From positions 1 to 29,710 of IMG/VR virus record IMGVR_UViG_3300013113_000124: DNA of 29,710 nt, one strand, 5' to 3'. The notes beneath the pieces were generated by a model that saw nothing but the letters and a program-made list of their open reading frames with translations, was not told the origin of the DNA and searched no databases. The translations under genes were made by a program, and so were the position numbers. This stretch comes from a virus. Below are positions 4,793 through 23,854 of this stretch, piece by piece (the first letter of the stretch is position 1; every line of letters starts with the position of its first letter).

Positions 4793-5704
4793 TTAGATAC
4801 GTACAATTCTCTCTGGAAATGCAACTTGGAAACCAACTTTCATCTTTTGAATAACTTTTACGTCATCTTCGTGCTCGTCGTAAGAAATTTTAAAGTTCTC
4901 ACCGTCATTCAATAAGTCAGTACCCATATAAAGGTTAGAAGCTTCAGCTAAGATAGCTTTACCTGTAACCATACCACCAAGACCAACAACTTCTACATTT
5001 GCAGAACCAGGAACTGGTTGTCTAAATTCTCCACCTTGGTTTTCAGCACCAGTGTAGTGGAATAAGTTAGCATCTCTTAATGCTTTAGCGTAAGTTCTGT
5101 AATCTGCGATAGATAAGAAAACTTTTAAATCATCAGCTTCAGCAACATCTTCTGGCAATGCAGAAACCATTGCATCGATAGCATCAACGATACCAGCAGC
5201 ATCTAAAGTTTCTCCAGTTACAACAGTAACATCACCTTCAGCTTCGATAATCTTAACAAAACCATCACATAATGATAATTCGTTAGATACAGGCAATGAA
5301 ACATCACCTCTCCAAGCTAATTTCTCGATGAACTTAGAAGTTTGTCCTACAACTTCTTCAGCGTATAATGCTTCAAAAGGAATAGATTCGTTATAAGAAC
5401 CTGGTCTCATAGCAGCTTGAGTGTAGTAAGCTTCCAAATCATTTAAACATAAAGATTCGTTTTTCTTAATATCACAAACTGAGATAGTTCTTTGAGTTAA
5501 TGCAGTCGTTCCAGAAGCATTAAATCCACAAGCACCTGCTTGCCATACTTGAGTAGAACCCAAGATGTTAATTGTAGCAGAACTTTTAATACCTGGTTGT
5601 ACAGAAATTACATTAACAGTTCTAGCATCCATTAATCCTCTACGGATTAAATCCATTTTTTGTTCGTCAACGTATGCTGACAATCCACTTAAATCAAAAG
5701 CCAT
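4793..5704 (-). CDS. Major capsid protein (HK97-fold)
   Basis: A 303-residue protein that forms the capsid shell. It has the composition and layout of HK97-type capsid proteins from flavobacterial phages: an N-terminal arm (FDLSGLSAYVDEQKMDLIRR), a central segment (DIKKNESLCLNDLEAYYTQA), an A-domain-like region with LKVFLSIADYRTYAKALRDA, and a C-terminal KVGFQVAFPERIVRI strand. No long N-terminal delta domain is present, which fits with the separate scaffold gene upstream. The protease-scaffold-capsid order and the strong terminator after the gene both support the call. Several Cys residues (for example ACGFNASG, VCDIKK) are not typical and may matter for stability. Confidence 0.88.
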   Translation of the reverse strand: MAFDLSGLSAYVDEQKMDLIRRGLMDARTVNVISVQPGIKSSATINILGSTQVWQAGACGFNASGTTALTQRTISVCDIKKNESLCLNDLEAYYTQAAMRPGSYNESIPFEALYAEEVVGQTSKFIEKLAWRGDVSLPVSNELSLCDGFVKIIEAEGDVTVVTGETLDAAGIVDAIDAMVSALPEDVAEADDLKVFLSIADYRTYAKALRDANLFHYTGAENQGGEFRQPVPGSANVEVVGLGGMVTGKAILAEASNLYMGTDLLNDGENFKISYDEHEDDVKVIQKMKVGFQVAFPERIVRI

Positions 5705-7170: not shown

Positions 7171-9084
7171 TTAACTTAATTCGCTTAATCCTTCTATACT
7201 CTTTATTGTATCCTGTGATTTAGTAATTTCTGATTCTGTAACATATGCTCTAATTGGTATGTTAGCACCAAATCTTTCAGCACCTGCAGTTACCCCTTGA
7301 AAATCAACATCAGTATTAACCTCTGGTGACGGAGCACTAGCAGTAGCACCTGCACCACCAGCATCAACATCTGGGGCTGGAGCTTTAAGTAATTTAGAAG
7401 CCTTAGCTATATTACCAGCAATTCTAATAGCACCTGCAGCAAACTGTGCAATACCAGCAGCACCAAATGTAGCACCATTTAACGGGTTAGCTTCAGATGA
7501 TTTAGTTAACGATGAAATAGCTTGTGCTGTATCAATACCTATTTGAGTTAATGCTGCAGCTTTTTGTATTATTTGAGCTTCCTTAGAACCTTCTTTAGCT
7601 ACATCTAAAGCTAATTGGAATCCACCATCTATAATAGCAGCTTTATTATCTTGATAAGTCTTCTCTATTTCCTCTTTTTGTTTAGTTAACTTCTTTTCGT
7701 CGTCTATTTCTTTCTTACGTTTTTCTTCAGCTGCCGCAGCATCTGCCTCTTCTTGCTCTCTTCTAGCATCTCTTCTTGCCGCTTCAGCTTCAAGTCTAGC
7801 TACCTCTAATGCATTTTCTTGGTCTAAGAATATTTGATTCTCTTGAAGTCCTAATTCTTTTAACTTCTCAAGTTTCATTTGTTCAGCCCTAATCTTAGCC
7901 TCAGCTAACTTAACAGCACTTTCTTCTAATATACTATCCTTATTTAATTGATTCTCAATTAATGCAGCTTCTTTATCAAATTGTTCTTTACGTAAATTTA
8001 CGTCATTAGTAATTTGTTCTGCTCTAATACCAGCATTCTCATTACGTAATTCAGCTAATTCAATCTCCTTTTCAGTGATAGCATCTAATATTTCAGTACC
8101 CTCACCTTCTAATGCTGCTCTATCTTTTAATAATTGTAATTCTTTTTGTGCTAAAGATACTGCTTGATTAACACGATTAGCTTCGATTTTACCTAACTTC
8201 TCGTTAGCAGCTATCCTTTCCTCTAATGATTTAGATTCATCATCTCTAATAACCTTTAAACTCTCTAATTGAGCTAATGATTTAGCGTTCTGTACTTCTT
8301 GTTCTCTTCTAGCTTTTGTTAATTCTTGTTCTCTACGAGTTAATTCAGCTAAAGCATCACCCATTCTATCAGCTTCTTCTACAACTTCTACTATAGCTTC
8401 ACCTATTGATACAGCAGTATCTATTATTTCATTACCAGCTTTCTTAAATACCTCTACATTTTCATCTAATTTAGCATTTACTTCATCTAATCTCTCAGTT
8501 AATTTAGCTGCTTCATCAGCATCACCAGTCCATTCATTCCAAGCTATACGAACTTTTAATATACCCTTTTCAATACCAAGTATAAGACTACTCCATACTG
8601 CCATATAAGGGTCGAATACGGTTGTTTTAAGAAAGTCAAACCCAGCTTCTATACTAGAAACAACATTATCCCAAGCTTCACCTGGTTTTTCTATAGCAAA
8701 TAATATAGCATCAAATACAGCAAAGAAAGCTTTTTGTAATGGTAATAATAAACCTTTAAGATAAGCAAAACCTTGACCCATCTTATTTGATGCTTCTTCA
8801 TTATTAGCAAACATTTCACTTAATGCTTTTACAGCTACTACAACAGCAGCAATAACAGCACCAATTGGATTAGCTATTACAGCTTTAAACCCTTGTAATA
8901 AACCACCAACACCTTGTTTAGCTGCACCAAACGCACCTTTTAATCCTCCAGTATTCTTATTTAAATTACCAGTAGCTTCAGCGGCTTCATTAGCACTATC
9001 AGCTACACCATCAAATGCACCCTCTACTTCATTGGCACCATCTACTTTATATTTTACGTCTACTTGAACTTTCTTCTTAGCCAT
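7171..9084 (-). CDS. Tail tape measure protein
   Basis: A 637-residue protein that sets tail length and helps DNA enter the cell. It begins with a Lys-rich segment and Ala/Gly-rich helices, has one hydrophobic segment (about residues 68-88, with AVIAAVVVAVKAL) that may insert in the host membrane, then a long charged coiled coil (about 240-480, rich in Glu, Lys, Arg and Ala). The C-terminal part is Ala/Gly-rich and amphipathic (about 500-590, with AALTQIGIDTAQAISSL). At about 0.15 nm per residue it predicts a tail near 95 nm. It is short for a tape measure and has no visible lysozyme or peptidase domain. It starts in a TATAATATG context. Confidence 0.85.
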   Translation of the reverse strand: MAKKKVQVDVKYKVDGANEVEGAFDGVADSANEAAEATGNLNKNTGGLKGAFGAAKQGVGGLLQGFKAVIANPIGAVIAAVVVAVKALSEMFANNEEASNKMGQGFAYLKGLLLPLQKAFFAVFDAILFAIEKPGEAWDNVVSSIEAGFDFLKTTVFDPYMAVWSSLILGIEKGILKVRIAWNEWTGDADEAAKLTERLDEVNAKLDENVEVFKKAGNEIIDTAVSIGEAIVEVVEEADRMGDALAELTRREQELTKARREQEVQNAKSLAQLESLKVIRDDESKSLEERIAANEKLGKIEANRVNQAVSLAQKELQLLKDRAALEGEGTEILDAITEKEIELAELRNENAGIRAEQITNDVNLRKEQFDKEAALIENQLNKDSILEESAVKLAEAKIRAEQMKLEKLKELGLQENQIFLDQENALEVARLEAEAARRDARREQEEADAAAAEEKRKKEIDDEKKLTKQKEEIEKTYQDNKAAIIDGGFQLALDVAKEGSKEAQIIQKAAALTQIGIDTAQAISSLTKSSEANPLNGATFGAAGIAQFAAGAIRIAGNIAKASKLLKAPAPDVDAGGAGATASAPSPEVNTDVDFQGVTAGAERFGANIPIRAYVTESEITKSQDTIKSIEGLSELS

Positions 9085-9105: not shown

Positions 9106-9570
9106 TTATAATGTTTTTAATGTTAAATAAAGGTCTTCAATTTCAACTGAGTTAATTTTATACTCACCTTTATTAATTTTCTTTAATTTGAAATATGGTC
9201 TAACTAACTTTATAACATAATATCTTCTATATGCTTTAAATTTAGAATACCCTGTTAATAACATTAATTCTCTATAGATTACATCAACCTTATCATTAAC
9301 GTAACCTAATCTATAACAATAATCGTGTATGAAATTATCTAATCTAGGTTCTCTACTATCTTTAACTGCAGTGGCACCATCGTAACCTTTAGTTTCCCAA
9401 AACCTACTATTCCAAGCTATCTTAAATAAATTAAATGCTTCTATTGGTAACTTATTTACTTGCATTTCTCTAATAAAAGATTCTAGTATCCATTCTTCAT
9501 TAAAGTGTGGATACCTTTTAAATGAACATAGTCCATACTTTACATTAAAACCGTCGTATATCTTAACCAT
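9106..9570 (-). CDS. DUF1353-like protein upstream of the tape measure
   Basis: A 154-residue basic protein. The middle part resembles DUF1353, a family often found in tail regions of phages: an IHDYCYRLG motif (His82-Asp83), a KVDVIYRELMLLTG helix with Asp96, and a following aromatic, basic helix (KAYRRYYVIKLV). The family is of unknown function; the conserved His-Asp and Asp look like possible metal ligands. The first 60 residues (with HFNEEWILESFIREMQ) are not recognised. The gene sits where tail assembly chaperones usually lie, just before the tape measure, but I see no frameshift signal. Its start codon lies only 3 nt after the T-tract of a terminator, so expression may be unusual. Confidence 0.55.
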   Translation of the reverse strand: MVKIYDGFNVKYGLCSFKRYPHFNEEWILESFIREMQVNKLPIEAFNLFKIAWNSRFWETKGYDGATAVKDSREPRLDNFIHDYCYRLGYVNDKVDVIYRELMLLTGYSKFKAYRRYYVIKLVRPYFKLKKINKGEYKINSVEIEDLYLTLKTL

Positions 9571-11088: not shown

Positions 11089-12240
11089 TTAAACTTCTTC
11101 TTTAACAGCAACAACATCCCACTTAGAATCATTACTATTATAAATGCAACCAACATAAATCTTTTTATTTGGTGTTGTTGTAGTTGGTAATGTAACACCT
11201 ATTACTTCATATATTGTGTTCCAAGTTAATGTGTGACCAGTTCCATTATCCTCTATACGAATAATTAACTTTTGTCCTTGTACTGGAGTACCACTTGGTG
11301 CAGCAATAGTCATATTTGTAGCTAAAGCTGTTACAACTACTTGGTCATCTTCATCCGCATTTGGAGTTAATGTTGCCGTTGATGTAGTTTCTTGAACTGA
11401 TGGATTTAAAATAGTTGACTTATCAACCTCTTGAGGAATACCATTAGCATCTCCTACCCAAATATTATCTGTTGATAAGTTAGGTAACCCTGCTGTTCTC
11501 GCTGTATTAAATACAAATATCTGCCCTCCTGTTGCATCAACTTTTAAAACCTTAGCAATCCTTTGAATTAATGAACCACTACCTGTAGGTCTAACCTTTG
11601 TAAGTCCTCCCGTAGTAGTAGACATATATAAAGCATCATTAACAGCCCAAGTTTCTCCGTTAGGGTTTAATGTAGTAACAGCAGATGTTGTATTTACACC
11701 TTCTAATTTACCAAAAGTTATGATATTTTTAGGGTCAGTACTATTAAAAGGCTCTGACGTAAATCCAATTACTGGCATAGTTGTAGAACTATTAGCATTT
11801 GCTACTTCTACTGTATGAACATCAGAATCAAATCCTACTAAATATACTGGTAATCCTTTTGCGATTGTACCAGCACTATCTTTTTTACCGCTAATTGAAA
11901 TTATTGAAGGTTCTTTATTAAGTTCAAGTTGTAAACTTATTGCATTTCTATCTGAAGTCCAAGTTCCAGATACATATACGTATATTCCTTGAGGATAATA
12001 AGTACCACCTACAGTAGCTGGTAACCAAGAAGTACCTTCAGAATTAGCTACATAAGCTAAATCGCCTTCACCCATACCAGTTACAGTACCTAAATCAGTA
12101 TAATTATCCGCAGTATATAGAAATGGTTGGGCACTACCTCCGCCTCCAGTTCCACCACTAAATACTACACCAATATTACCATCGGCATCAATATTTACGT
12201 TCTTAAAAAAATCGTATTGGTTATTTATGTTTGTACTCAT
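11089..12240 (-). CDS. Putative tail fibre with shared attachment module
   Basis: A 383-residue protein predicted to be a tail fibre or tail-tip protein. Residues 5-27 carry a module (YDFFKNVNIDADGNIGVV) shared with the next two upstream genes, followed by a Gly-rich linker (SGGTGGGGS). The middle (about 80-260) resembles a fibre domain found in many marine and Bacteroidota phages: KKDSAGTIAKGLPVYLVG, then IGFTSEPF, WAVNDALYMSTTTGGLT, and a GGQIFVFNTAR strand. A C-terminal beta domain (from about residue 290) contains GQKLIIRIEDNGTGHTLTW. Receptor binding is plausible but inferred. It is encoded immediately after the 59-residue gene with the same module, 1 bp apart. Confidence 0.65.
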   Translation of the reverse strand: MSTNINNQYDFFKNVNIDADGNIGVVFSGGTGGGGSAQPFLYTADNYTDLGTVTGMGEGDLAYVANSEGTSWLPATVGGTYYPQGIYVYVSGTWTSDRNAISLQLELNKEPSIISISGKKDSAGTIAKGLPVYLVGFDSDVHTVEVANANSSTTMPVIGFTSEPFNSTDPKNIITFGKLEGVNTTSAVTTLNPNGETWAVNDALYMSTTTGGLTKVRPTGSGSLIQRIAKVLKVDATGGQIFVFNTARTAGLPNLSTDNIWVGDANGIPQEVDKSTILNPSVQETTSTATLTPNADEDDQVVVTALATNMTIAAPSGTPVQGQKLIIRIEDNGTGHTLTWNTIYEVIGVTLPTTTTPNKKIYVGCIYNSNDSKWDVVAVKEEV

Positions 12241-12241
12241 A

Positions 12242-12421
12242 TTACGCTTTATATATTTTTAAATATCCTTCTGGGGTAAGACTTAATTTTTGAAAAGTAT
12301 TATGTTGATTAACTCCTTTTTCAACAGGATTAACTTTACCCTCAAGTAATACAATTATATTTCCATTCTCATCTAAGACTATCTCTTGAAAAAATCTCTT
12401 TGCATTAGTTATACTTGCCAT
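12242..12421 (-). CDS. Small tail-tip protein carrying the shared attachment module
   Basis: A 59-residue gene read from the gap between two fibre genes. Its N-terminus (KRFFQEIVLDENGNIIVLL) matches the module at the start of the flanking 129- and 383-residue proteins (FFKN.N.D..GNIGVV), which makes it very likely a real gene rather than a chance frame. The rest (VEKGVNQHNTFQKLSLTPEG) is short and has no recognised domain. It ends with TAA 1 bp before the start of the 383-residue gene. It may be a stub that occupies or caps an attachment site, or the remnant of a fibre that lost its C-terminal domain. Confidence 0.75.
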   Translation of the reverse strand: MASITNAKRFFQEIVLDENGNIIVLLEGKVNPVEKGVNQHNTFQKLSLTPEGYLKIYKA

Positions 12422-12454
12422 AAAATAATAATATTAATTAAATGTTATTGTTCA

Positions 12455-12844
12455 TTAATCTGGTTTATACCAAAAGGTAACAAACCCTCTGTTTATGGTT
12501 GCATCATCATAATTAACATTTTGAAAGTTTCCACTTGGAATCCTAACAAGTATTATAGTAGCTGAATTACTTCCATTAATCATTCCAGAATTGTTTATAT
12601 TCGTTAAAGCATTTTCGCCATCATCTATTATTTCGGCTTCTACTTGTCTAATAGTTTTCCACTCAGTAGCTGATAAACCGTGACTAATAAATATTGTACC
12701 ACTACCTGGGTCATTCATATTCCAAGAACCTATTTCTATTTCTTTAAACTCCCATATAGTATCTGCACTTAATACTACGCCAATATTTCCATTTTCATCT
12801 AAGTTTATATTCTTAAAGAAATCTTTTTGATTATTTACACTCAT
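12455..12844 (-). CDS. Small tail-tip protein with shared attachment module
   Basis: A 129-residue protein whose first 25 residues (NNQKDFFKNINLDENGNIGV) match the N-terminal module of the two genes downstream. The remainder is a different, beta-rich domain (TIFISHGLSATEWKTIRQ; SATIILVRIPSGNF; GFVTFWYKPD). The shared N-terminus and variable body suggest a common adaptor used to mount several small proteins on the tail tip. The function of the body is unknown. It follows the large tail-tip protein by 30 bp. Confidence 0.68.
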   Translation of the reverse strand: MSVNNQKDFFKNINLDENGNIGVVLSADTIWEFKEIEIGSWNMNDPGSGTIFISHGLSATEWKTIRQVEAEIIDDGENALTNINNSGMINGSNSATIILVRIPSGNFQNVNYDDATINRGFVTFWYKPD

Positions 12845-12874: not shown

Positions 12875-15800
12875 TTAATCTGGTATATAAGTTATTCTAA
12901 TTCTAACACTCGCTGCATTATATAACGCACTAGTCACATAATCGGATGTTGCATTAAAGTTAATTTGTACATCTGTAGTGTTAATCAAATAATGACCTCC
13001 AATATCTGTAAATGTACCAAAAGAATGATAATTTAACTCTTTCCAAATTGCCCCAGTATTATCTGCGATTAATATACATACATCTAATATGTTAGAAACC
13101 TCTTGAGTGGTTAAAGTATGTGTATAGTTTAATTGACTACCTAATAAGGTATTTATATTGACTGGAGCTAATAGTACATTCAATATCTTTTCCGCACCTT
13201 CACCTCCAACTTGTGTTGAACCGTCTGGATTAATAGTTAATCCATTAATAATACTTGTATTACTTTCAGTTACTTCTTGCTCATCACCAATTACTGTAAC
13301 ATTAACTAATCCTGGTGATACTACATTACCATTACCTTGAACATTAATATTACTAGAACCACCACCTACGTTGTTATCATTACCAGTTACAGTACCAGAA
13401 ACATTTTCACCAACGTAGTTATTTTCACCTAATACCATAACATCTTTAGAAAATACAGTATTAGTTACACTACTCTTAAATGGACCACTTCTCATTCCAT
13501 CAGTAGGACTAATTAAACCAGTAATTAAATCAGTACCTATAGCTGTAAATAAACCGTCATCTGTAATACCAGTAATTGCTGTTACAGTTGGTGTAAAGTC
13601 ACTACCCTTATCAATCTTAAGTAACTCAACCTTTGTTAAACCTTCTTCTAATGGCTTGTAATCGATTATCTTATTAATTACATAGTAAGAGTCCTTTACA
13701 AAAATACGAGGGCTTAAATTGTCCTTAATTTTGTTTATATCAGTTTCTGTTAATCTAAAATAAGATGTAACTAATCTACCAGTTGATATCTGATTAATAT
13801 AATTCCTCCAATATCTATTAAATAAGTTATTATTAGTTAAATCATTTAATAATACACCATAAGCTTCATAGGTTACTTGTCCAAAGTGAGTATCTCCAGT
13901 TGGATTATATGGGTCATCCCAGTGTCCAGCATATGGATAATCTGCATAAGTAACACTAGTACCAGACCAATCTATCGTAAATTTATCTTCCAATAAAACA
14001 CCGTCACCATCTTTAACTGGTACTTTACCACCATAATAAGTGACAACTGGATTACGTTTACCTACAGCACTATTTACCGCTGGTACAACAACTCCATTCT
14101 TAGCTCTATATACCAATGGTGCACTTGAAAACATACTTTCAATTTTCTTAGTGCCCTTAACAAAATCATTATCAAACGTTATTTTCTTTTGTCCATATAT
14201 ATCACCAGTATTTCTAGTATAAACTTCATTCCATTTTTGATTATCTGCAGCTACAGCTGAGTTATCTGGCTTATATGTAAATAATATTTCCTTATTCTGT
14301 AGCTCAGTTAAGAAACTAATTTGGTCTTCACTAGAATAATCTTTCTTTTGTGTCCAATCTAATACATCAGTATTCGAATAAAATTGGTCTCTAGTCTCTA
14401 ATATAAGCGTTCTAATCTTACTTGGATTAGGTCTTATATATAGATTATATCTTTTTATAATATCTCCTATAAAATCTCTTTGTTTAATAGATTTTGGTAT
14501 AAATAAATTTAAATCGATATCATCACCATACTCAATATTTTGTATTAATGAAGTCTTATTGAAGAATACTGAATCAATACCACTATCCATAACTTTATTA
14601 GCTATAAAATCAATAGTAACTGGTTCAATAGTACTTGCACCTGGTAATGAATACCAAGCAAATGGTACAACAGAGTCTAATGCATATTTAACAAATACTC
14701 GTCTACCAGGTTCAACCTTAGCAGTTATATTAAATGTTAAATCATTATCTAATGTTTGTGTACCAACAACCGTAACAAATTCACCTACCTCTCCTAATTC
14801 TAGTGAACTACTAGCAATTACGGTACCATCATCATAAAGTAGATAAGCTTTAACGTTAACTGGTAAACTTAAAACTTGTGTTCTAGGTTCACCAGGTGCT
14901 TTCTTATAAAGTTCACAAAGATTAGATGCTGTATAATTAACAGTAAATTTTTGTTTTAAAGTAAACGTATATATACTAGTCTTTGATGATATGAAAGTAG
15001 ATGCTGGGTCACCACCAACTGTATCATTAGGAACATAATTACCAGTATTATCAAAAATAACCTCGTCGTAATCAAATGCCTTAGTAGTGTCGAAATCGTT
15101 AACAAGCGTTTTAAGCTCGTTTTTAGTTCCAGATGCAATAGTTACTGAAGAGCCTGTAAAAGACGCTCTAAACTCTCTAGAAATAGCTTCAGATTTACTT
15201 ACCTCTGGTTCATTACCATCCCAAAGAATTAATTCATTAGGAAAGTATTCATCATTATCCATAAAATCACCTTCTAAAGTATAGCCAGCTTCACTAGCTA
15301 TCTGATTTAATATACCTTTAGAATATAATGCTGGCTTGAAATCACTTACTTTATAACCTCTATCAACTTTATCTAATGTAGGATATTGATATATATCATT
15401 AAATGTATTAGCAGTCCACGCATTTTCTATAGTAGTCTTATCATATGTATGTGTATATGCTGATAATTCTAAATCAGTTAGTTCTTTATCACCTAATTGT
15501 TGGAAGAAATCAATACTTGAATCGAATAATATTATATTATATTGAATTAAGTTACCTTCTAAATCGGTATTATTTAATTTCTTAACACTTTTAAGTTGTA
15601 AATAACCTTCAATTAAAGGACTTGAATCTTGTAATAATACAGCATCAACCCTTAAATTAGGGTCATACTTATCGAACGTAGTTTTAATATCAAATAGATG
15701 TCCGAATATTTCATTATTATTCTTAGTACCAGGTACAGTAAATGTCTTTGAGAAGTTACCATTCTTCTTTTCGATGTTTCTAACGTCATCAATTGAGTAA

Positions 15801-15892
15801 TTCATATTGATACCTACATTACTATCTTCTAAGTCGATATAATGCTTCTCACCACTTTGGTCTGTTACTAATAATTCTACCTTACTTACCAT
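12875..15892 (-). CDS. Large tail-tip/baseplate-like protein with beta-roll segment
   Basis: A 1005-residue structural protein. The N-terminus (KVELLVTDQSGEKHYIDLED, then NFSKTFTVPGTKNN) is characteristic of large tail-tip proteins I know from flavobacterial phages. In those phages it follows the 500-residue tail protein, as here, and the two probably form the tail tip or hub. The middle has beta-rich domains and a segment (about 540-620) with many Lys and aromatic residues. Residues of about 815-875 form a glycine/asparagine-rich stretch (LGENNYVGENVSGTVTG, NDNNVGGG, NVQGNGNVV) that looks like a YadA-type trimeric beta-roll. The C-terminal part from about 905 may be a head or chaperone domain. 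Exact role is inferred. Confidence 0.7.
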   Translation of the reverse strand: MVSKVELLVTDQSGEKHYIDLEDSNVGINMNYSIDDVRNIEKKNGNFSKTFTVPGTKNNNEIFGHLFDIKTTFDKYDPNLRVDAVLLQDSSPLIEGYLQLKSVKKLNNTDLEGNLIQYNIILFDSSIDFFQQLGDKELTDLELSAYTHTYDKTTIENAWTANTFNDIYQYPTLDKVDRGYKVSDFKPALYSKGILNQIASEAGYTLEGDFMDNDEYFPNELILWDGNEPEVSKSEAISREFRASFTGSSVTIASGTKNELKTLVNDFDTTKAFDYDEVIFDNTGNYVPNDTVGGDPASTFISSKTSIYTFTLKQKFTVNYTASNLCELYKKAPGEPRTQVLSLPVNVKAYLLYDDGTVIASSSLELGEVGEFVTVVGTQTLDNDLTFNITAKVEPGRRVFVKYALDSVVPFAWYSLPGASTIEPVTIDFIANKVMDSGIDSVFFNKTSLIQNIEYGDDIDLNLFIPKSIKQRDFIGDIIKRYNLYIRPNPSKIRTLILETRDQFYSNTDVLDWTQKKDYSSEDQISFLTELQNKEILFTYKPDNSAVAADNQKWNEVYTRNTGDIYGQKKITFDNDFVKGTKKIESMFSSAPLVYRAKNGVVVPAVNSAVGKRNPVVTYYGGKVPVKDGDGVLLEDKFTIDWSGTSVTYADYPYAGHWDDPYNPTGDTHFGQVTYEAYGVLLNDLTNNNLFNRYWRNYINQISTGRLVTSYFRLTETDINKIKDNLSPRIFVKDSYYVINKIIDYKPLEEGLTKVELLKIDKGSDFTPTVTAITGITDDGLFTAIGTDLITGLISPTDGMRSGPFKSSVTNTVFSKDVMVLGENNYVGENVSGTVTGNDNNVGGGSSNINVQGNGNVVSPGLVNVTVIGDEQEVTESNTSIINGLTINPDGSTQVGGEGAEKILNVLLAPVNINTLLGSQLNYTHTLTTQEVSNILDVCILIADNTGAIWKELNYHSFGTFTDIGGHYLINTTDVQINFNATSDYVTSALYNAASVRIRITYIPD

Positions 15893-15894
15893 AT

Positions 15895-17412
15895 TTATCC
15901 TCTTTGTGATTTATTCTTAATTGCATACTCAAAGCTAATTGTATAATTAATTAACTTATCGTTTTGTCTTTTCTTAATTTCGTATGTATTAGTTGTTATA
16001 TTAATAGCAATATAATCACCATCTTCATTTTGTATGTATACATTTGGTGATTCTAACATATCTAATACCATACTAGCCATAGTTTCAGTTAACCAATCAG
16101 ATGTACAAGTAACCGTTTCAGTAATTACCTTATCATAATTAGTCATACCTCTATCATATGTAGTATATCCCCAAGCATCTGATACTGAATCATATGTACC
16201 ATAGTTTTGAGAATAGTTACTTCTTTTAACACTGTTCTTTTGTCTAGAAACCTTATTGAAAGTTAATGGTAAGTAACTACCTAACTTATCCATATAAAAG
16301 AATCTAATCTTATCATATCTACTACAATCATCTACTATATCATATCTAATAGTTTCACTTAATGGATTTAAAAGACCATCACTAAAATACCACTCTATAT
16401 AAGTTGTATTAGAATCAAGTATTGGTAATGATATAGGACCACTAACACGATTTATTAACCCTGTTGATTCAAGTAAATCCTTCGGTCCTAATTTATTTTG
16501 ATTTATAAAATGTTGTCCAGATGGAATGTGACCATTTGGTGTTATAAATGTTCCATTATCAGTTTTAAAAGTAATGTATGGTGATTTAGGTAAACCCATA
16601 TAACTATTAACCCATACTCTATCTTCTAATGTTATATCAAATTGTGTAACATTATCTAATAATAATTTAGTTGATGTAGTGGAACTTGTTGATAATAAAT
16701 ATTCTGAACTATCCCAATTTCTAAAATCTTGATGTGATAACACTCCATTGAATGAATAGAATGTAGTAGCTGACAATGGTAAGTCTTGTACTATTGTTCT
16801 AGTACCTCCAGATGTTAATGTAGCTGTACCAGGGTTAGCTGGTGTACTTAATAAAAATGGACCATCCACAACTATAGTGTATTCGTCGGGTGTGGCTATA
16901 ATAGTCCATTGGTCGTTATATTCGGGATTAATATATCCTGGGTCTTGAACAATATCAATAACATCACCAACAATAAAAGGGTGTTTATCTGTTGAATTAC
17001 TATGGAATCCTAAATCATTAGGTGAATAAGTACCATAAAAATTATTATCAAGAAATCTCCATTTAGGATTTTCAAATACTTCTTTAATTTGAACAGACCA
17101 TTTAAGTCCTTCGTTTAATACTTTACTAGATACATCATTTACATCCGCTGGATAAAATGATGTTGTTATGTAATTCTCTATATGTCTATGTACATCTAAT
17201 ACACCATATCCTTCTGGATTAGGTAATATAGTTAATGTACTAATTAATTCGTATTCTGGCTCACTATCAACACCCTTATATAATTCTACTATCCATTTAA
17301 AATTATCACTAATAATATTAGGTGATTCTAATACTAAAATAGTTTCATTATAAGTCGGTGTTAACCCTGTTGGTGATACCTTAATCTCTGTTGTCGTACC
17401 AGTTAATATCAT
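15895..17412 (-). CDS. Putative tail-tip/distal tail protein
   Basis: A 505-residue protein next to, and 2 bp from, the large tail-tip protein. The early part (TYNETILVLESPNIISDNFK and KWIVELYKGVDSEPEYELI) and the YGVLDVHRHIENYITTSF segment fit a protein family found only in phages of Bacteroidota as far as I know, tied to the tail tip. A central region (about 150-290) has Ig-like or beta-barrel patterns, and the C-terminus (about 330-500) carries YGTYDSVSDAWGYTTYDRG and a basic, structured end. No enzymatic motif is seen. It most likely contributes to the tail tip or adaptor complex together with the following gene; the distal tail role is inferred from position. Confidence 0.62.
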   Translation of the reverse strand: MILTGTTTEIKVSPTGLTPTYNETILVLESPNIISDNFKWIVELYKGVDSEPEYELISTLTILPNPEGYGVLDVHRHIENYITTSFYPADVNDVSSKVLNEGLKWSVQIKEVFENPKWRFLDNNFYGTYSPNDLGFHSNSTDKHPFIVGDVIDIVQDPGYINPEYNDQWTIIATPDEYTIVVDGPFLLSTPANPGTATLTSGGTRTIVQDLPLSATTFYSFNGVLSHQDFRNWDSSEYLLSTSSTTSTKLLLDNVTQFDITLEDRVWVNSYMGLPKSPYITFKTDNGTFITPNGHIPSGQHFINQNKLGPKDLLESTGLINRVSGPISLPILDSNTTYIEWYFSDGLLNPLSETIRYDIVDDCSRYDKIRFFYMDKLGSYLPLTFNKVSRQKNSVKRSNYSQNYGTYDSVSDAWGYTTYDRGMTNYDKVITETVTCTSDWLTETMASMVLDMLESPNVYIQNEDGDYIAINITTNTYEIKKRQNDKLINYTISFEYAIKNKSQRG

Positions 17413-17445: not shown

Positions 17446-17799
17446 TTACTTGAAGTTTTTAAATTTGAAACTATATTCTACACTATCTGTGGAATCGAAG
17501 TCATCTGGTATGTTAATAAAGTAACCGTTAATCATTAATCCAATTAAGTCATCTTCTATTTTAGCGTATTCTTTAGACTTAAATACATCTTCAGATACAT
17601 CATACGGTATATCAAGATACTGTAGATAATCCATAGCCTTAACATCGATATCTAAATCACCTTTCTTACCAATCTTAATCTTAGTTTCAAAAGACCTAAC
17701 AAGGGCACCTGTGTCAACAAGCCCCTTCTTATTAATCTGTTTTTGATATAGCCTAGTTATCCTTATAGCTATCTTTCTTATTTCGCTTTTAACGCTCAT
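17446..17799 (-). CDS. HK97 gp10-like tail-completion protein, second paralogue
   Basis: A 117-residue protein with the KKGLVDTGALVRSFETK motif of HK97 gp10-like neck and tail-completion proteins. It aligns without gaps over about 65 residues with the 103-residue product at 23543-23854: matching positions include GLV.TG, S...K, DV.A.DY..Y and F.S..Y..I. The extra C-terminus (INIPDDFDSTDSVEYSFKFK) is specific to this copy. It is placed among the tail-tip genes rather than neck genes, so this copy may have a new role. Its ATG overlaps the stop of a 20-codon frame upstream in a TAATG junction. Confidence 0.65.
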   Translation of the reverse strand: MSVKSEIRKIAIRITRLYQKQINKKGLVDTGALVRSFETKIKIGKKGDLDIDVKAMDYLQYLDIPYDVSEDVFKSKEYAKIEDDLIGLMINGYFINIPDDFDSTDSVEYSFKFKNFK

Positions 17800-17887: not shown

Positions 17888-20002
17888 TTATCCTATTTGT
17901 CCGTTACCGTAAGCATCTAATGTATTAGTATTACCAAGTGTAACTGTACCAAAGTCAATACCTGTACCTACTTCACCAGCTAATACATTATACATATAAA
18001 CCGTACCACTATCACTAAATACTATATTCTTAACTGATGGGTTAGTAACAATTGCTTCACAGTCAGTCATATACATATCACCATCAGAAGAACGAATTTG
18101 TATCTGCATTGCTGGACTCGTATTACTAGCATTTTTACAAACAGCAGTTAAGCCTTTAATTCTAAACGCAGTAATAGAACTTCCTTGTTGGTCATAAAAA
18201 GCGGGTTGGTTAGTAGCGTTAGTCACACAAGTAACATCTTTAATATTATAACCGCTTTGTGAGTTCTGTGTTCTAAGGGTATATAACGCTGTGCCACCCT
18301 CTGAATAAAAATAACAGTTGTGTATATCTTTAATATAAGCTCCATTCATTGCTATACCCGTTCCATAATGATAACCTTTAACATTTTGAATATTAATAAA
18401 ATTACCCGATGCTCCGCTACCTATTGCCATAGCTGCATTTGCTCCGCTTGTACATATGTACGTATTATCCCAAAACTTACAGTTTCTTCTGATTGAAATC
18501 ATTGTGTTGCTAACAGCATCGCCTGTAATGGTACAACCTCTAATCTCTACGGCTTGAGAGCCTACTTGCCCGCCCGTGGTTACGGTTATGTCGCAATTTA
18601 TAAAATTACTTCTTCCAAATTTAGTGATAACTTTAGCATTCTTAACTCTTTGATTAAAACCAGCAAAATTAACATAACTATTAGTTGACTCTAAAATACC
18701 ACCATTACAATTTAATAAATAAATTATTGCATTATTCACAGACGTAATATAAGTATTATCATCAAAAAATAATTCCATAGAACCACCACCTGGGTTAGCT
18801 CTAAAAACCGCTCCAGTAGAAGTTGAAACTGAAGTTCCATTAGATTCAATCTTTATATTATTTAAATAGAATTTTTTGTTATTTCCAGAACCTACAAAAA
18901 ACAACGCATACTCAGTACCAGTATCAGAAGTGTGGGTAATCTTATGTCCATTACCATTTATAGTAAAACTAGTGTTTGCTCCTGCGGGTAATGTAACTGT
19001 GGTTGTTTGTGTTATATCAGAGTGTAAATAAACTACACCATTAGCACCAGCATCGTTAACTGCTGTTTGTAAATCACTATAAAAAGTAGGTATACCACTA
19101 CTATCATTAACTGATATTAAACCACCTGTAACAGCACCAATAGTCAAATCGGTTACAACACCTAAGTTATCTTTATACCGTCCTTTAAGCTCTCCAGAAT
19201 CGATATGGAAAGAGAATGAATCATCCACTAATGTACCATCAGCTATTGCAGTTGTTTCTGCTTTTTGTATTAAGTAGTCGTTAATTAATGTTTCTCCTTG
19301 TAAGGAAATATCTTCAGTACCTATTCTTGAAGAACTACCAATTGTTAACCACTGAGAAGCACCAAAACCATTCATATAAAAATTGGTGTCAAATTCTCCC
19401 ATTATTTCGTGAATCGTATTTGAAGATAAAACCCATTTTAACGTTGGTCTGTTTGGCTCTAATTGTAAATACGTGTTTATGTTGGTAGGATAATAAAATT
19501 TGTAGTCATTAGCTTTAACGCTAAAGCTCCCGCCTTCGTGCCTTAAGTGGTAAGTTCCTCCCGTTCTTCTTAATTTTAACAGGTTATTGTCGTCTATTTC
19601 TGTGTTAGTAATAAATCCTTTTTCATCTATTTTAAAAACACTTGAACCCGTTCCTAAAACTTGAAAAACAGGCTCTTGATTTCCTGTGTAACTTGTACCG
19701 TCAATTATTACCCCCCCGTTAGTTTGGTCTAAACAATCAAAAGTTAAAGTATCCGTTAACGTTGCAATTCTTCCACTTCCTATTGTACCATCAGCTGTGT
19801 ATATATTATCAGTTACACCTCCTTTTTCGAATACAGCTATTACATCACCAGATGAATCCTTATAATAAGGTAAATCATCATCTAAATTATAAAAGTAAGT
19901 ATCATTAGCTATACCAGCCCAGTCAGCTGAAGTATCAGTAATAACTGAATAACTAATACCCTTTTCGGGTTTTGGGTTAAAATTTATATTTTGTATCGCC
20001 AT
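17888..20002 (-). CDS. Tail spike/fibre with parallel beta-helix (second copy)
   Basis: A 704-residue virion protein predicted to contact the host surface. The N-terminus (MAIQNINFNPKPEKGISYS) is a short head; a DNIYTADGT block lies near residue 65. Residues about 230-290 carry a segment (DISLQGETLINDYLIQKAE, GRYKDNLGVVTDLTIG) that also occurs in the larger spike next door. From about residue 300 to the end, short repeats rich in Asn, Gly, Thr and Ile (FYSDLQTAVNDAGANG, NKKFYLNNIKIESNG, GSMELFFDDN) form a pectate-lyase-like beta-helix. No catalytic signature for polysaccharide cleavage was seen. The C-terminal ending (LDAYGNGQIG) is shared in pattern with the first copy (SDPYGNITI). The gene probably arose by duplication. 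Confidence 0.72.
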   Translation of the reverse strand: MAIQNINFNPKPEKGISYSVITDTSADWAGIANDTYFYNLDDDLPYYKDSSGDVIAVFEKGGVTDNIYTADGTIGSGRIATLTDTLTFDCLDQTNGGVIIDGTSYTGNQEPVFQVLGTGSSVFKIDEKGFITNTEIDDNNLLKLRRTGGTYHLRHEGGSFSVKANDYKFYYPTNINTYLQLEPNRPTLKWVLSSNTIHEIMGEFDTNFYMNGFGASQWLTIGSSSRIGTEDISLQGETLINDYLIQKAETTAIADGTLVDDSFSFHIDSGELKGRYKDNLGVVTDLTIGAVTGGLISVNDSSGIPTFYSDLQTAVNDAGANGVVYLHSDITQTTTVTLPAGANTSFTINGNGHKITHTSDTGTEYALFFVGSGNNKKFYLNNIKIESNGTSVSTSTGAVFRANPGGGSMELFFDDNTYITSVNNAIIYLLNCNGGILESTNSYVNFAGFNQRVKNAKVITKFGRSNFINCDITVTTGGQVGSQAVEIRGCTITGDAVSNTMISIRRNCKFWDNTYICTSGANAAMAIGSGASGNFINIQNVKGYHYGTGIAMNGAYIKDIHNCYFYSEGGTALYTLRTQNSQSGYNIKDVTCVTNATNQPAFYDQQGSSITAFRIKGLTAVCKNASNTSPAMQIQIRSSDGDMYMTDCEAIVTNPSVKNIVFSDSGTVYMYNVLAGEVGTGIDFGTVTLGNTNTLDAYGNGQIG

Positions 20003-20030: not shown

Positions 20031-23000
20031 TTATATAGTAATATTACCGTAAGGGTCACTAGTAAACGGATTTGATAAAGTTACATTTGCGTTAATTGGT
20101 GTTGTAGCACCTTTAAAAGTACAGTTAGAAACCGTTACAGATTCTGCATCCGCTGAAGTTATACAGTTGGCACCAGCGTTTACAACTTCAAAGGTACAAT
20201 TCATAAAATCAGCATTACCACCGTCAATACCAGTAATATCAACAGCGTGTCCAGCAGTAGTATCTAGTAAACAAGTAAAATTACAATTCTTAAATACCGA
20301 GTCATTACGACTCGACAAATCAAATAAATTAGGTCCTTCAGCATCTGTAGCTATAAAACTAACATTTTCAAATCTGTTATCAGCTCTAATAGACATAATG
20401 TTACCGCTAGTCTTTCTACTTTCTAGTTTTCCGTTTGTAACTTTACAATTCTCAAAGAAACCCATATCTAAACTACCAGCTATATTAAGAACATCAAAGC
20501 TAGAAAATTCTACTCCTACTGTATCGAATACAACTCCATTTTCACATACAATATTAAAATTACTAAAAACGTGCCTTGTTGCACCATAATTTCTAATTCT
20601 TATAGCTGAACCACTTTCACTTTCTATAGTAAAGTTTGTTATAGTTTTATCTCCTGTTACTGATGGTTGTAAAGCAATACCAGTCCCAGATATTAAAGTA
20701 AAGTCAGTAGCAAACCCCGCAGCATTAGGCATACTCAAACAAGAACCACTACCTGCTTTTGCTGTGAAGTTTTTACAACCGTAACCCGAAATATATGCTG
20801 TTCCAGTAGAAGTGTTTTCTACATAGAAATTTTCAACAGTAAAATAACCGTTAGTATTTAATGTTGGTAATGTACCTCTACCTATGAACCTTGAACCACC
20901 AAATAATAATTTATTAATACCACTGTAAGCAGTAGTGAATGTAGTAACATTTGAATCTATAACCATATCACTCATTAAAACATCAAATTGTTTCATATAT
21001 ATAGCCTCACCACTTGTAGCGTTAGTTCTTAATATTCTACCATTTATAAACCTTACAGTTTGAACAACTGCGGTGGAACCATCATTAAAATTAAAAACTT
21101 TAGTGCTATCAGATTGATTATTGCTAATAGTAAATCCATTAAAATCAATAGTTAATGTATCAAAGTTATAACCATTACCAACACCAGTACCAGCTTGATT
21201 AATTTCTATAGCTGCAGTTAAATCAATGTCTGAATGTAATTTAACAACGTTGTTACTTCCACTTGTTTTACAAGTTTCTAAAGCAGTTTGTAAATCTGTA
21301 AAGTATGTTGGTTCACCAGCATCTGAATCTAGAATAACTTCTATAATCCCAAACTCAGTTGAACCGATAGTTAAATCAGTAACAACTCCTAAGTTATCTT
21401 TGTATCTTCCTTTAAGTGCTCCACTATCAATATAAAAACTATATGAGTTATCAATATGACAAGCATCAGATACTGCAGTTATACTAGCTTTTAAAACTAA
21501 TTCATCATTGATTAATGTTTTACCTTGTAGGGATATATCTTCACAAGCTAATGGTGCTACTCCTCCTACAACAAAATTTCTGTTTGACGCAAAGCCTGTC
21601 TTAAAAAAAGTTGTATATTCACCAGTACTACCACCAGCTAATCCTATTCTATGGATTTCGGTATCTAAATTATTAATAAAATTAACCCCATTTTGGTCAA
21701 ATTTTGTTCTTGTAGTTGTGCTTGTTTTACCAATTTGGATGTTTCTTATTGTGCCGTGATACCAATAACCAGTCTGATTTGCCTCAACTCCGAAGAAAGT
21801 AGAATTTTTTATTGACCCGTTTACTAAAACATCACCGTCCTCATCAACACTAAAAGCCTCTCCCGCAGGTTTGTTTATAACAAATATTTTATCATTACTA
21901 GCTGTAGCACTACCGTCTATTGTTAATATATTACCATCTGTGTCAATAGTTCTATCTCCAGTTAATGTACCATCAGCAGTATAGATATTATCAAAACTAA
22001 TAGCAGTTATTGAATCTTCAACAAACTTCTTAGTGATTAATGAGTTATCTGTCCATCCAGCTGAATAATCAGCAGCGTATTCTATACCTTTAGTGATTGC
22101 TCTAGTATCCGTAAATGTCGTATCAGTACTTGTAAAATTTAAATCAGTTGTTGGTCCGTATAACAGTAATTTAGTATTATCAATAGTAATACCATTAGTT
22201 GTTGTTCCATCGGTATGACTTATTATAATATTATTATCGGTTAAAATAACTTGATTATTAGTTGACCCGCCATCGGTATGATAAAGTGAAGCTTGATTAT
22301 CTGCAATAGTAGATATACTATTTTGTCCAGTAGAAGTATCAGTAGATGATATCACTGCTTGAGAATTAATAACATCTATAAAAGATGTCTTATTTCCACT
22401 AATATCTGTAGCTTCTGATTTAGTTTGATTAGAATTAATAGTAAATGTATTAGTAAAATTACCTGTAACATCAGTAGCTGTTGTTATTACACTATTAGGG
22501 TTATAAGAACTATTTATTGAACCAAATCCTGCAGTGGTAAAAGTTTGATTTGAGGTAACTGAATTAATATTAAAAGATGATAATCTACTTGAAGCATCTC
22601 CTAAGTTTAATACCTTATTATCACCGAACATAGTTCTATCAGAAGTTAAAGTACCATCAGCAGTATAGATATTATCAAAACTAATACCAGTTAATACTGA
22701 GCTAATATCTACGCTGTAAGCGTCACTTAAATCTGTTCTATCAAATGATATCACACTACCATCAAAAGTGGCTCCAGTCGTATAAGAATTAGTGTCATCC
22801 TTTAATGCTGTTAAATCAGTTAATACTATTACACCATCATTTCTAGTTAACTCTAAATTATTAGTAGTATTATTAAATGTACCACCAGTTACGAATGTAT
22901 CTCCAGTTAATGAAGATGTATCTATTGATATTATTTTAGTATTACCAGAAGCTGTAGCCACTTCAATTGGATATACACCTATAACATCCTCTACGTATGT

Positions 23001-23534
23001 AGCATCACATATAGCATTATAACCATCACATTCACCACCAGGGAATGAGAATCCTTCAATCTCAGCCATTGGTAAACCACACCAGCTATTAATTAATGGT
23101 GTTTTAAATGATAGTTCACATACCCACCCAGTTACTTCTTCATCGAACTCTTCTGTAAATGGTTCAAAATCAATATCATTAATAATGTTTAATTTACTAT
23201 TGGTATAGTAAGGATGACTTTTAAACTCAGTTATGATATCTTTTAATATATCTATACCATCTGATAATACTTCCTTTTCATTAGACTCGTCTTTATTTAC
23301 TAAATCGAATATTCTAATCTCGAAATCTATTTCAAATGTTTTATAACCTATGTTATTATCTGATTCAGTCATCAATGCTGATACTGGATTAATCCATAAT
23401 ACAGGATGCATCTTAGCTTCACTAGCACCTACTTCCCAATTGTCTCCATATCCAAAACCATTTATTTGGTAATGTCTATTAGCAGCATCTTTGAAAACAG
23501 TTATTAATTGATTTATTGTTTTTATTTTAGCCAT
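20031..23534 (-). CDS. Giant tail spike fused to a tail-completion domain
   Basis: A 1167-residue protein. Residues 1 to about 170 (TINQLITVFKDAANRHYQING, YKTFEIDFEIRIFDLV, WVCELSFKTPL) look like the tail-terminator or completion proteins that follow gp10-like genes, and this domain is fused to a spike. Then come Thr/Ser/Asn-rich fibre repeats (about 200-520) with two FDNIYTADGTL blocks encoded by near-identical DNA. A segment at about 663-725 (DISLQGKTLINDELVLKAS, GRYKDNLGVVTDLTIG) is shared with the neighbouring spike. From about 745 to the end, beta-helix repeats (NFDTLTIDFNGFTISNNQS, FMNCTFEVVNAGANC) resemble pectate-lyase folds. The fusion joins a neck-type domain to a host-binding spike, which is unusual. 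Confidence 0.72.
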   Translation of the reverse strand: MAKIKTINQLITVFKDAANRHYQINGFGYGDNWEVGASEAKMHPVLWINPVSALMTESDNNIGYKTFEIDFEIRIFDLVNKDESNEKEVLSDGIDILKDIITEFKSHPYYTNSKLNIINDIDFEPFTEEFDEEVTGWVCELSFKTPLINSWCGLPMAEIEGFSFPGGECDGYNAICDATYVEDVIGVYPIEVATASGNTKIISIDTSSLTGDTFVTGGTFNNTTNNLELTRNDGVIVLTDLTALKDDTNSYTTGATFDGSVISFDRTDLSDAYSVDISSVLTGISFDNIYTADGTLTSDRTMFGDNKVLNLGDASSRLSSFNINSVTSNQTFTTAGFGSINSSYNPNSVITTATDVTGNFTNTFTINSNQTKSEATDISGNKTSFIDVINSQAVISSTDTSTGQNSISTIADNQASLYHTDGGSTNNQVILTDNNIIISHTDGTTTNGITIDNTKLLLYGPTTDLNFTSTDTTFTDTRAITKGIEYAADYSAGWTDNSLITKKFVEDSITAISFDNIYTADGTLTGDRTIDTDGNILTIDGSATASNDKIFVINKPAGEAFSVDEDGDVLVNGSIKNSTFFGVEANQTGYWYHGTIRNIQIGKTSTTTRTKFDQNGVNFINNLDTEIHRIGLAGGSTGEYTTFFKTGFASNRNFVVGGVAPLACEDISLQGKTLINDELVLKASITAVSDACHIDNSYSFYIDSGALKGRYKDNLGVVTDLTIGSTEFGIIEVILDSDAGEPTYFTDLQTALETCKTSGSNNVVKLHSDIDLTAAIEINQAGTGVGNGYNFDTLTIDFNGFTISNNQSDSTKVFNFNDGSTAVVQTVRFINGRILRTNATSGEAIYMKQFDVLMSDMVIDSNVTTFTTAYSGINKLLFGGSRFIGRGTLPTLNTNGYFTVENFYVENTSTGTAYISGYGCKNFTAKAGSGSCLSMPNAAGFATDFTLISGTGIALQPSVTGDKTITNFTIESESGSAIRIRNYGATRHVFSNFNIVCENGVVFDTVGVEFSSFDVLNIAGSLDMGFFENCKVTNGKLESRKTSGNIMSIRADNRFENVSFIATDAEGPNLFDLSSRNDSVFKNCNFTCLLDTTAGHAVDITGIDGGNADFMNCTFEVVNAGANCITSADAESVTVSNCTFKGATTPINANVTLSNPFTSDPYGNITI
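21967..22002 (-). repeat. 36-bp direct repeat inside the giant spike, copy 1
   Basis: These 36 bases recur exactly at 22651-22686 in the same orientation and in the same reading frame, encoding an IYTADGT block in both. A diverged third version occurs near 19785-19815 in the next spike gene. The repeats are 684 bp apart and could recombine to delete or add 228 codons in frame. Confidence 0.85.
22651..22686 (-). repeat. 36-bp direct repeat inside the giant spike, copy 2
   Basis: This is the second exact copy of the 36-base sequence at 21967-22002, within the same gene and frame. Exchange between the copies would change the length of the fibre region by 684 bp without breaking the frame. Confidence 0.85.
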
Positions 23535-23542
23535 AATTAATG

Positions 23543-23854
23543 TTATCTATTATATCTATTAACGAATTTTCTAAACTCTATTAAAATTGTTTGGTATCTT
23601 GATGAATTAAATGCATTATTTAATATATTGAAATCGCCGTTAACATATTTAAAATAATCTACTGCGTCTACATCAACATTCATTTGTTGCATAGAACCCA
23701 TAGATACTTTACATTTAATACTACCTATCATTTTACCAGTCTTAACTAAACCTTGTCTACGAATCTCGTCTTTAATGATTTTATCGATTTGACTAGCAAA
23801 CTTTCTATAAGCTCTTCTAGTTTCTGATAATCGTATTTCTTCGTTATTATTCAT
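23543..23854 (-). CDS. HK97 gp10-like neck/tail-completion protein
   Basis: A 103-residue basic protein with the RRQGLVKTGKMIGSIKCK motif typical of HK97 gp10-like proteins, which join the head to the tail. It is followed at 8 bp by the spike whose N-terminus looks like a tail-terminator domain, reproducing the usual gp10-like/terminator pair. The DVDAVDYFKYV segment and the NSSRYQTILIEF ending match the second paralogue at 17446-17799. There is no catalytic motif. The presence of two paralogues in one phage suggests duplication and specialisation, one for the neck and one for the tip. Confidence 0.68.
   Translation of the reverse strand: MNNNEEIRLSETRRAYRKFASQIDKIIKDEIRRQGLVKTGKMIGSIKCKVSMGSMQQMNVDVDAVDYFKYVNGDFNILNNAFNSSRYQTILIEFRKFVNRYNR

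Follow-up and report, generated by a model that had tools for sequence, protein, structure and literature searches.

What does a short N-terminal sequence do when it is shared by three adjacent genes that otherwise look unrelated? This question is raised by one viral record of 29,710 bases, the whole of which was analysed and is called the window here; its long genes sit on the minus strand. The first-pass annotation had placed open reading frames of 129, 59 and 383 residues side by side between 11089 and 12844, and all three are present there on the minus strand, with these lengths. They are referred to as A129, B59 and C383, and the shared sequence as the module. We propose that the module serves as a docking tag to which interchangeable appendage bodies are joined, and that B59, which would consist of two modules, is its adaptor. 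Based on comparison of sequences and on predicted structures, we give this reading a probability of about two in three. The three genes and their parts are as follows.

12455..12844, minus strand: A129, module and knob-domain protein, 129 residues (open reading frame; module HMM match at residues 2-23)
12770..12841, minus strand: A129 module, residues 2-25, SVNNQKDFFKNINLDENGNIGVVL (N-terminal alignment, module HMM)
12458..12763, minus strand: A129 knob domain, residues 28-129, IGSWNM...HGLSATEWKT...NRGFVTFWYKPD (homology to hub C-terminus; AlphaFold beta sandwich)
12242..12421, minus strand: B59, short tandem-module protein and putative adaptor, 59 residues (family of 54-60 residue proteins; AlphaFold model)
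12347..12415, minus strand: B59 module 1, residues 3-25 (N-terminal alignment, module HMM)
12248..12310, minus strand: B59 degenerate module 2, residues 38-58 (aligned position in family A1/A5; helix-strand-strand topology in the model)
11089..12240, minus strand: C383, module and fibre-body protein, 383 residues (open reading frame; body matches tail fibre proteins)
12160..12231, minus strand: C383 module, residues 4-27 (N-terminal alignment, module HMM)
11926..12135, minus strand: C383 second shared domain, residues 36-105, NYTDL..GDLAYV..GTYYP.GIY (common to L006, L023, L024, L025 and L043)
11410..11901, minus strand: C383 middle domain, residues 114-277 (79% identity in the 100-kb contig L017; cyanophage tail fibre proteins)
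11092..11409, minus strand: C383 C-terminal fibre domain, residues 278-383 (phrog_3030, E 1e-20; phage P19250A tail fibre, 48%)

The shared N-terminus was assessed by ungapped BLOSUM62 alignment of the first 60 residues. The scores were 103 for A129 and C383, 71 for A129 and B59, and 50 for B59 and C383, and none was reached in 1000 shuffles (p<0.001 per pair). The similarity on which the first-pass annotation rested was therefore borne out, and the bodies are unrelated, as it had also claimed. When A129 was searched against the whole record, the only matches besides itself were the N-termini of B59 and C383 (E 5e-8 and 4e-4, respectively), and no other protein of the window was found to carry the module. 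Starting from the N-termini of A129, B59 and C383, an iterated profile search of open frames in related viral loci reached convergence with 77 hits; the similarity thus persists in a profile comparison. The consensus, (I)NNQYDFFKxVNLDxxGNLGV, covers about 22 residues, and the conserved stretch starts before the FF pair, as (I)NNQYDFFK.

Pattern scans of the viral collection located a long module-bearing protein in 19 distinct viral cassettes, and the module is thus not confined to the window. In every fibre-type protein found, the module is N-terminal. The cassettes were those of the window and of L006, L007, L023, L024, L025, L026, L027, L030, L032, L033-L035, L043/L044, L045, L055, L058, L070/L071, L073, L074 and L075; in L011 the module is worn and has no companion gene of the B59 type. 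Three divergent tail-hub lineages are spanned. A hub tree built to see which lineages carry the module had good support at few branches, with long branches coming together. Numerous proteins that start with the module lie beside tail genes and have varied C-termini, as the plug-in idea of the first-pass annotation had led one to expect. The module turned up in none of 50,697 phage records and in no sequenced phage isolate, and a pattern scan of prokaryotes (one genome each of 84,980 species) gave no credible match. The sole genome match in that scan lay within a glycosyltransferase-like protein and was dismissed as a chance match.

The level at which the module is conserved was examined by comparing the window with the lineage of L007, L027 and L034. 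The module is 76% identical between them, a figure inflated by the use of module patterns to find some of the contigs; L058, which was reached via its short protein, also gives 76%. In the same comparison, identity is about 31% for the tail hub and for a 505-residue tail protein, 34-37% for the portal and about 53% for the putative capsid protein, and the module is also better conserved than the tape measure. Where two modules have identical residues, the codons differ in a median of 46% of cases. This indicates conservation of the protein and not recently copied DNA, which argues against an explanation at the DNA level, in which the conserved 5' sequence would serve mainly as a recombination hook through which fibre genes are swapped, with no protein module. 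Bodies are swapped often, as such a hook would allow, but the tandem copy in the short protein and its predicted fold would be unexpected, and we consider this explanation highly improbable.

The first-pass annotation had described the 59-residue protein as almost only the module. This description falls short, and the tandem make-up of the protein was overlooked: B59 belongs to a family of 54-60 residue proteins whose members hold two modules, one after the other. In L024, L025, L026 and L074, the profile detects both modules within a single protein of 55-60 residues. The last 30 residues of each companion were also scored with a model made from the modules of long proteins only, with 200 shuffles each. 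No shuffle was as good in 16 of 19 companions, and the signal was weaker in L030 (6/200) and L033 (2/200). In the window copy, the second module was not significant by sequence (36/200 shuffles as good). The second half of B59 aligns position by position with its relatives, and its AlphaFold model has a helix-strand-strand order in both halves (helix 6-11 and strand 23-26; helix 38-44 and strand 53-56) at middling confidence (pLDDT 77, pTM 0.55; four other models 50-56). The short family as a whole diverges too much for its alignment to serve in a pattern scan, and closer subsets were used instead.

A profile search against the PDB with the double-module family gave only chance-level matches (BamA, E 0.15), and a Foldseek search of the PDB with the B59 model gave nothing below E 5. 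The viral library yielded one 59-residue relative, A0A516L5E8, at 58% identity. B59 matches phrog_31269 at E 0.007, a match that is missing in 10 of 11 relatives.

In all 19 fibre cassettes, the double-module gene lies directly 5' of the module fibre gene; in L073, the contig contains only the second half of the companion gene. The gap between the two genes is -1 to 26 nt (usually 0-26) in all but L055, where a 123-codon open reading frame (L055:3428-3799) sits between them and may resemble homing endonucleases of the NUMOD4/HNH type. This tight pairing suggests joint synthesis and assembly. The companion would then be a joint or adaptor that is produced along with the fibre. The module itself would be a small docking unit, which the B59 model predicts to be a short helix leading into a beta hairpin, and it would attach exchangeable bodies, receptor-binding or accessory, to the virion.

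A module that is small and N-terminal would also be compatible with a folding, trimerisation or assembly tag, for example one recognised by a chaperone, that plays no part in keeping the fibre on the virion, and the bodies are fibre-like and probably oligomeric. However, a free-standing double-module protein with no body is hard to account for in this way, and in other contigs the A129 body does without the module, being carried on another anchor or fused to the hub. We regard such a tag as improbable. Both it and the recombination hook are less likely than docking to the hub or assembly of modules with one another, which are weighed below.

Removal of the first 32 residues left 21 module proteins in 13 groups without detectable similarity, and removal of the first 110 residues left 20 module proteins in 16 groups. 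C383 is composed of the module, a second shared domain (N100), a middle domain and a C-terminal domain. L073 has the module, N100 and the C-terminal domain without the middle domain, L070 has the module joined directly to the C-terminal domain, and L018/L019 have the middle and C-terminal domains on another N-terminus. This domain shuffling among module fibres is in frame. In C383, both the middle and the C-terminal domain have matches among the tail fibre proteins of isolated phages, and the C-terminal domain also matches phrog_3030. With a body homologous to annotated tail fibre domains, and located in the tail gene block between the hub and the chaperone-like and tape-measure genes, C383 is a probable tail fibre protein. 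The tail fibres of cyanophage S-PRM1 and Methylophilaceae phage P19250A (phrog_3030) are like C383 in these two domains but have other N-termini and no module. The L030 module protein has a ConA/LamG-like lectin domain near its end. Judged by such similarities, the module-borne bodies look like receptor-binding appendages.

In the window, a 1167-residue protein (20031-23534) has a conserved N-terminus of about 155 residues, which in L032 is a free-standing protein of 162 residues, and a long fibre-like body. This body and a 704-residue protein (17888-20002) resemble genes of L017, a 100-kb contig from the same sample, which suggests fibre exchange between unrelated phages. In L060:6683-8519, three consecutive proteins of about 200 residues have differing bodies and a common N-terminal hairpin-like motif, DGTGxGFGAKVDEEGRLHV. 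This is an analogous plug-in that is apparently different from the NNQYDFF module.

The body of A129 belongs to knob family A3, with the motif IGDWNM...HGLSATEWKT...NRG. In L005, L006, L011 and L030, the homologue of the 1005-residue hub ends in a knob of this type, and in L007, L008, L009 and L012 the knob is carried on other anchors. Exchangeability therefore applies in both directions. The knob is covalently attached in some hubs and is a separate module-bearing protein here, which supports, without proving, the notion that the module may replace a covalent link in the same structure. The knob was modelled by AlphaFold as a beta sandwich (pLDDT approximately 86-96 over residues 31-129). Its best Foldseek match had an E value of 0.08, and its VIA structural neighbours had Z values of 4.5-5.8, a range called common, with an rmsd of about 3 A over 74-84 residues. 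These include the R1 pyocin fibre knob (Z 5.8) and the H-type lectins discoidin II (5.3) and Helix pomatia agglutinin (4.7), at 7-10% identity, a weak fold resemblance from which no membership is claimed. In the hub, residues 780-900 or so resemble trimeric YadA-like beta-roll adhesins (9gh4, E 2e-5; CbpF, E 9e-4). The C-terminal domain of the window hub (approximately residues 891-1005) differs from the knob of the L005, L006, L011 and L030 hubs; the L055 hub has the window's version and is split into two frames.

The genes that flank the three in the window are listed here.

15895..17412, minus strand: 505-residue tail protein, conserved upstream of the hub (conserved in relatives)
12875..15892, minus strand: tail hub-like protein, 1005 residues (homologue gp45 in Nonlabens phage P12024S)
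9106-9570, minus strand: tail assembly chaperone-like gene (downstream of the cassette, beside the putative tape-measure gene)
7171-9084, minus strand: putative tape-measure protein (downstream of the cassette; phrog_1158, E 3e-4; gp49-type homology with the neighbouring 9106-9570 entry)

Most cassettes sit among hub or 505-residue protein genes and chaperone-like or tape-measure genes, which favours the tail, probably near the hub, as the main site of attachment. The nearest isolates, the Nonlabens (Persicivirga) phages P12024S/L (Inhavirus), have the hub (gp45), the 505-residue protein (gp44) and the tape measure (gp49) in the same order but, unlike the window, have neither the module nor the short companion. 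The window also has paralogues of 117 and 103 residues (17446-17799 and 23543-23854; score 76, 0/1000 shuffles), two copies of a putative tail or neck completion protein in one genome.

This setting makes it possible, if doubtful, that the 1005-residue hub, or the 505-residue protein, has a socket at the tail tip that receives the module, with the short protein as a cap or spare plug that has no fibre. Nine contigs have the cassette immediately after the hub (the window, L006, L024, L026, L030, L044, L045, L055 and L070), L007 and L034 have it between the 505-residue protein and the hub, and four relatives have the A129 knob fused to the hub. However, a socket fits poorly with identities between lineages of about 76% for the module but about 31% for the hub and 505-residue proteins, and the short protein is a double module and not a lone plug. 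Furthermore, the hub-bearing relatives L005, L012 and L013 and the Nonlabens phages have no module. L013 does have an A129-like protein of 131 residues, whose N-terminus bears an equivocal resemblance to a divergent module, with 16 of 1000 shuffles as good under one model and 350 of 1000 under another.

The position of some module proteins also speaks against a hub socket. The L058 cassette lies after portal and connector genes, and other module proteins lie near the terminase. The latter form a second family of 210-240 residues, encoded between connector or portal and terminase genes, outside the fibre cassette.

L062:2975-3649: module protein of the second family
L064:4564-5223: module protein of the second family
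L037:6001-6723: module protein of the second family
L063:3626-4258: module protein of the second family

These proteins are made up of the module, a heptad-like stretch, a Pro/Cys-rich linker and a conserved C-terminus. L063 also has an open reading frame of 106 residues (5362-5682, minus strand) that resembles about five degenerate module cores in tandem (NNKYDFF, SRDFYK, NENDFYK, NEASFMS and GNQYKFY; 0/1000 shuffles as good). With module proteins encoded outside the tail genes as well, a site at the tail tip is not the general rule. Of the plug-in system first proposed, the exchangeable bodies hold up and the tail tip as a general site does not. Proteins located away from tail genes had been named as grounds for abandoning the idea; some exist, though they do not clearly count as such.

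A strongly constrained module next to a poorly conserved hub is easier to understand if the partner is also conserved, for example if modules are partners of one another. By bridging or polymerising hairpins, the double-module protein might then form a homotypic joint or collar on which the fibre is carried, with another protein contacting the virion. Double and single modules strictly co-occur, the module exceeds the hub, the 505-residue protein, the tape measure, the portal and the putative capsid protein in conservation, and the L063 protein has several module cores in tandem. On the other hand, the discovery of some contigs by module patterns inflates the apparent conservation, and we put this forward as a tentative explanation, about as likely as the hub socket. 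It is also conceivable, though rather unlikely, that a homotypic clip system is centred on the double-module protein, in which the modules on fibres, on adaptors and on the remote coiled-coil-like proteins co-assemble. If this were true, one module type would decorate several virion sites and any body could be added via 22 residues.

The preferred reading, a docking tag with its own adaptor, has a parallel in characterized phages. Conserved N-terminal docking peptides are present on second receptor-binding proteins of E. coli K1-5/K1E, Salmonella SP6 and the KP32/KP34 Klebsiella phages; they bind an adapter protein in K1-5/SP6, and docking is only proposed for the Klebsiella phages (Latka et al. 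2019, PMC6872550). The two systems are alike in having a short conserved N-terminus on side-by-side proteins with unrelated C-terminal bodies. However, the known peptides can be 7 or 11 residues and act on an anchor or adapter with a T4gp10-like branching domain, whereas the module described here has about 22 residues and a predicted fold, recurs in tandem and has a companion made of two modules. No Pfam hit to a T4gp10-like domain was obtained in the hub, 505-, 704- or 1167-residue proteins, and no sequence relation was seen between the module and the K1-5/Klebsiella docking peptides.

These results provide a 22-residue signature that marks virion appendage proteins in uncultivated phages, which probably infect Bacteroidota, and that is useful where fibre bodies are too divergent to annotate. 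They also suggest that a docking tag can be minimal and naturally portable and come with its own adaptor, and they make it testable how phages gain and exchange host-recognition bodies without refitting the tail.
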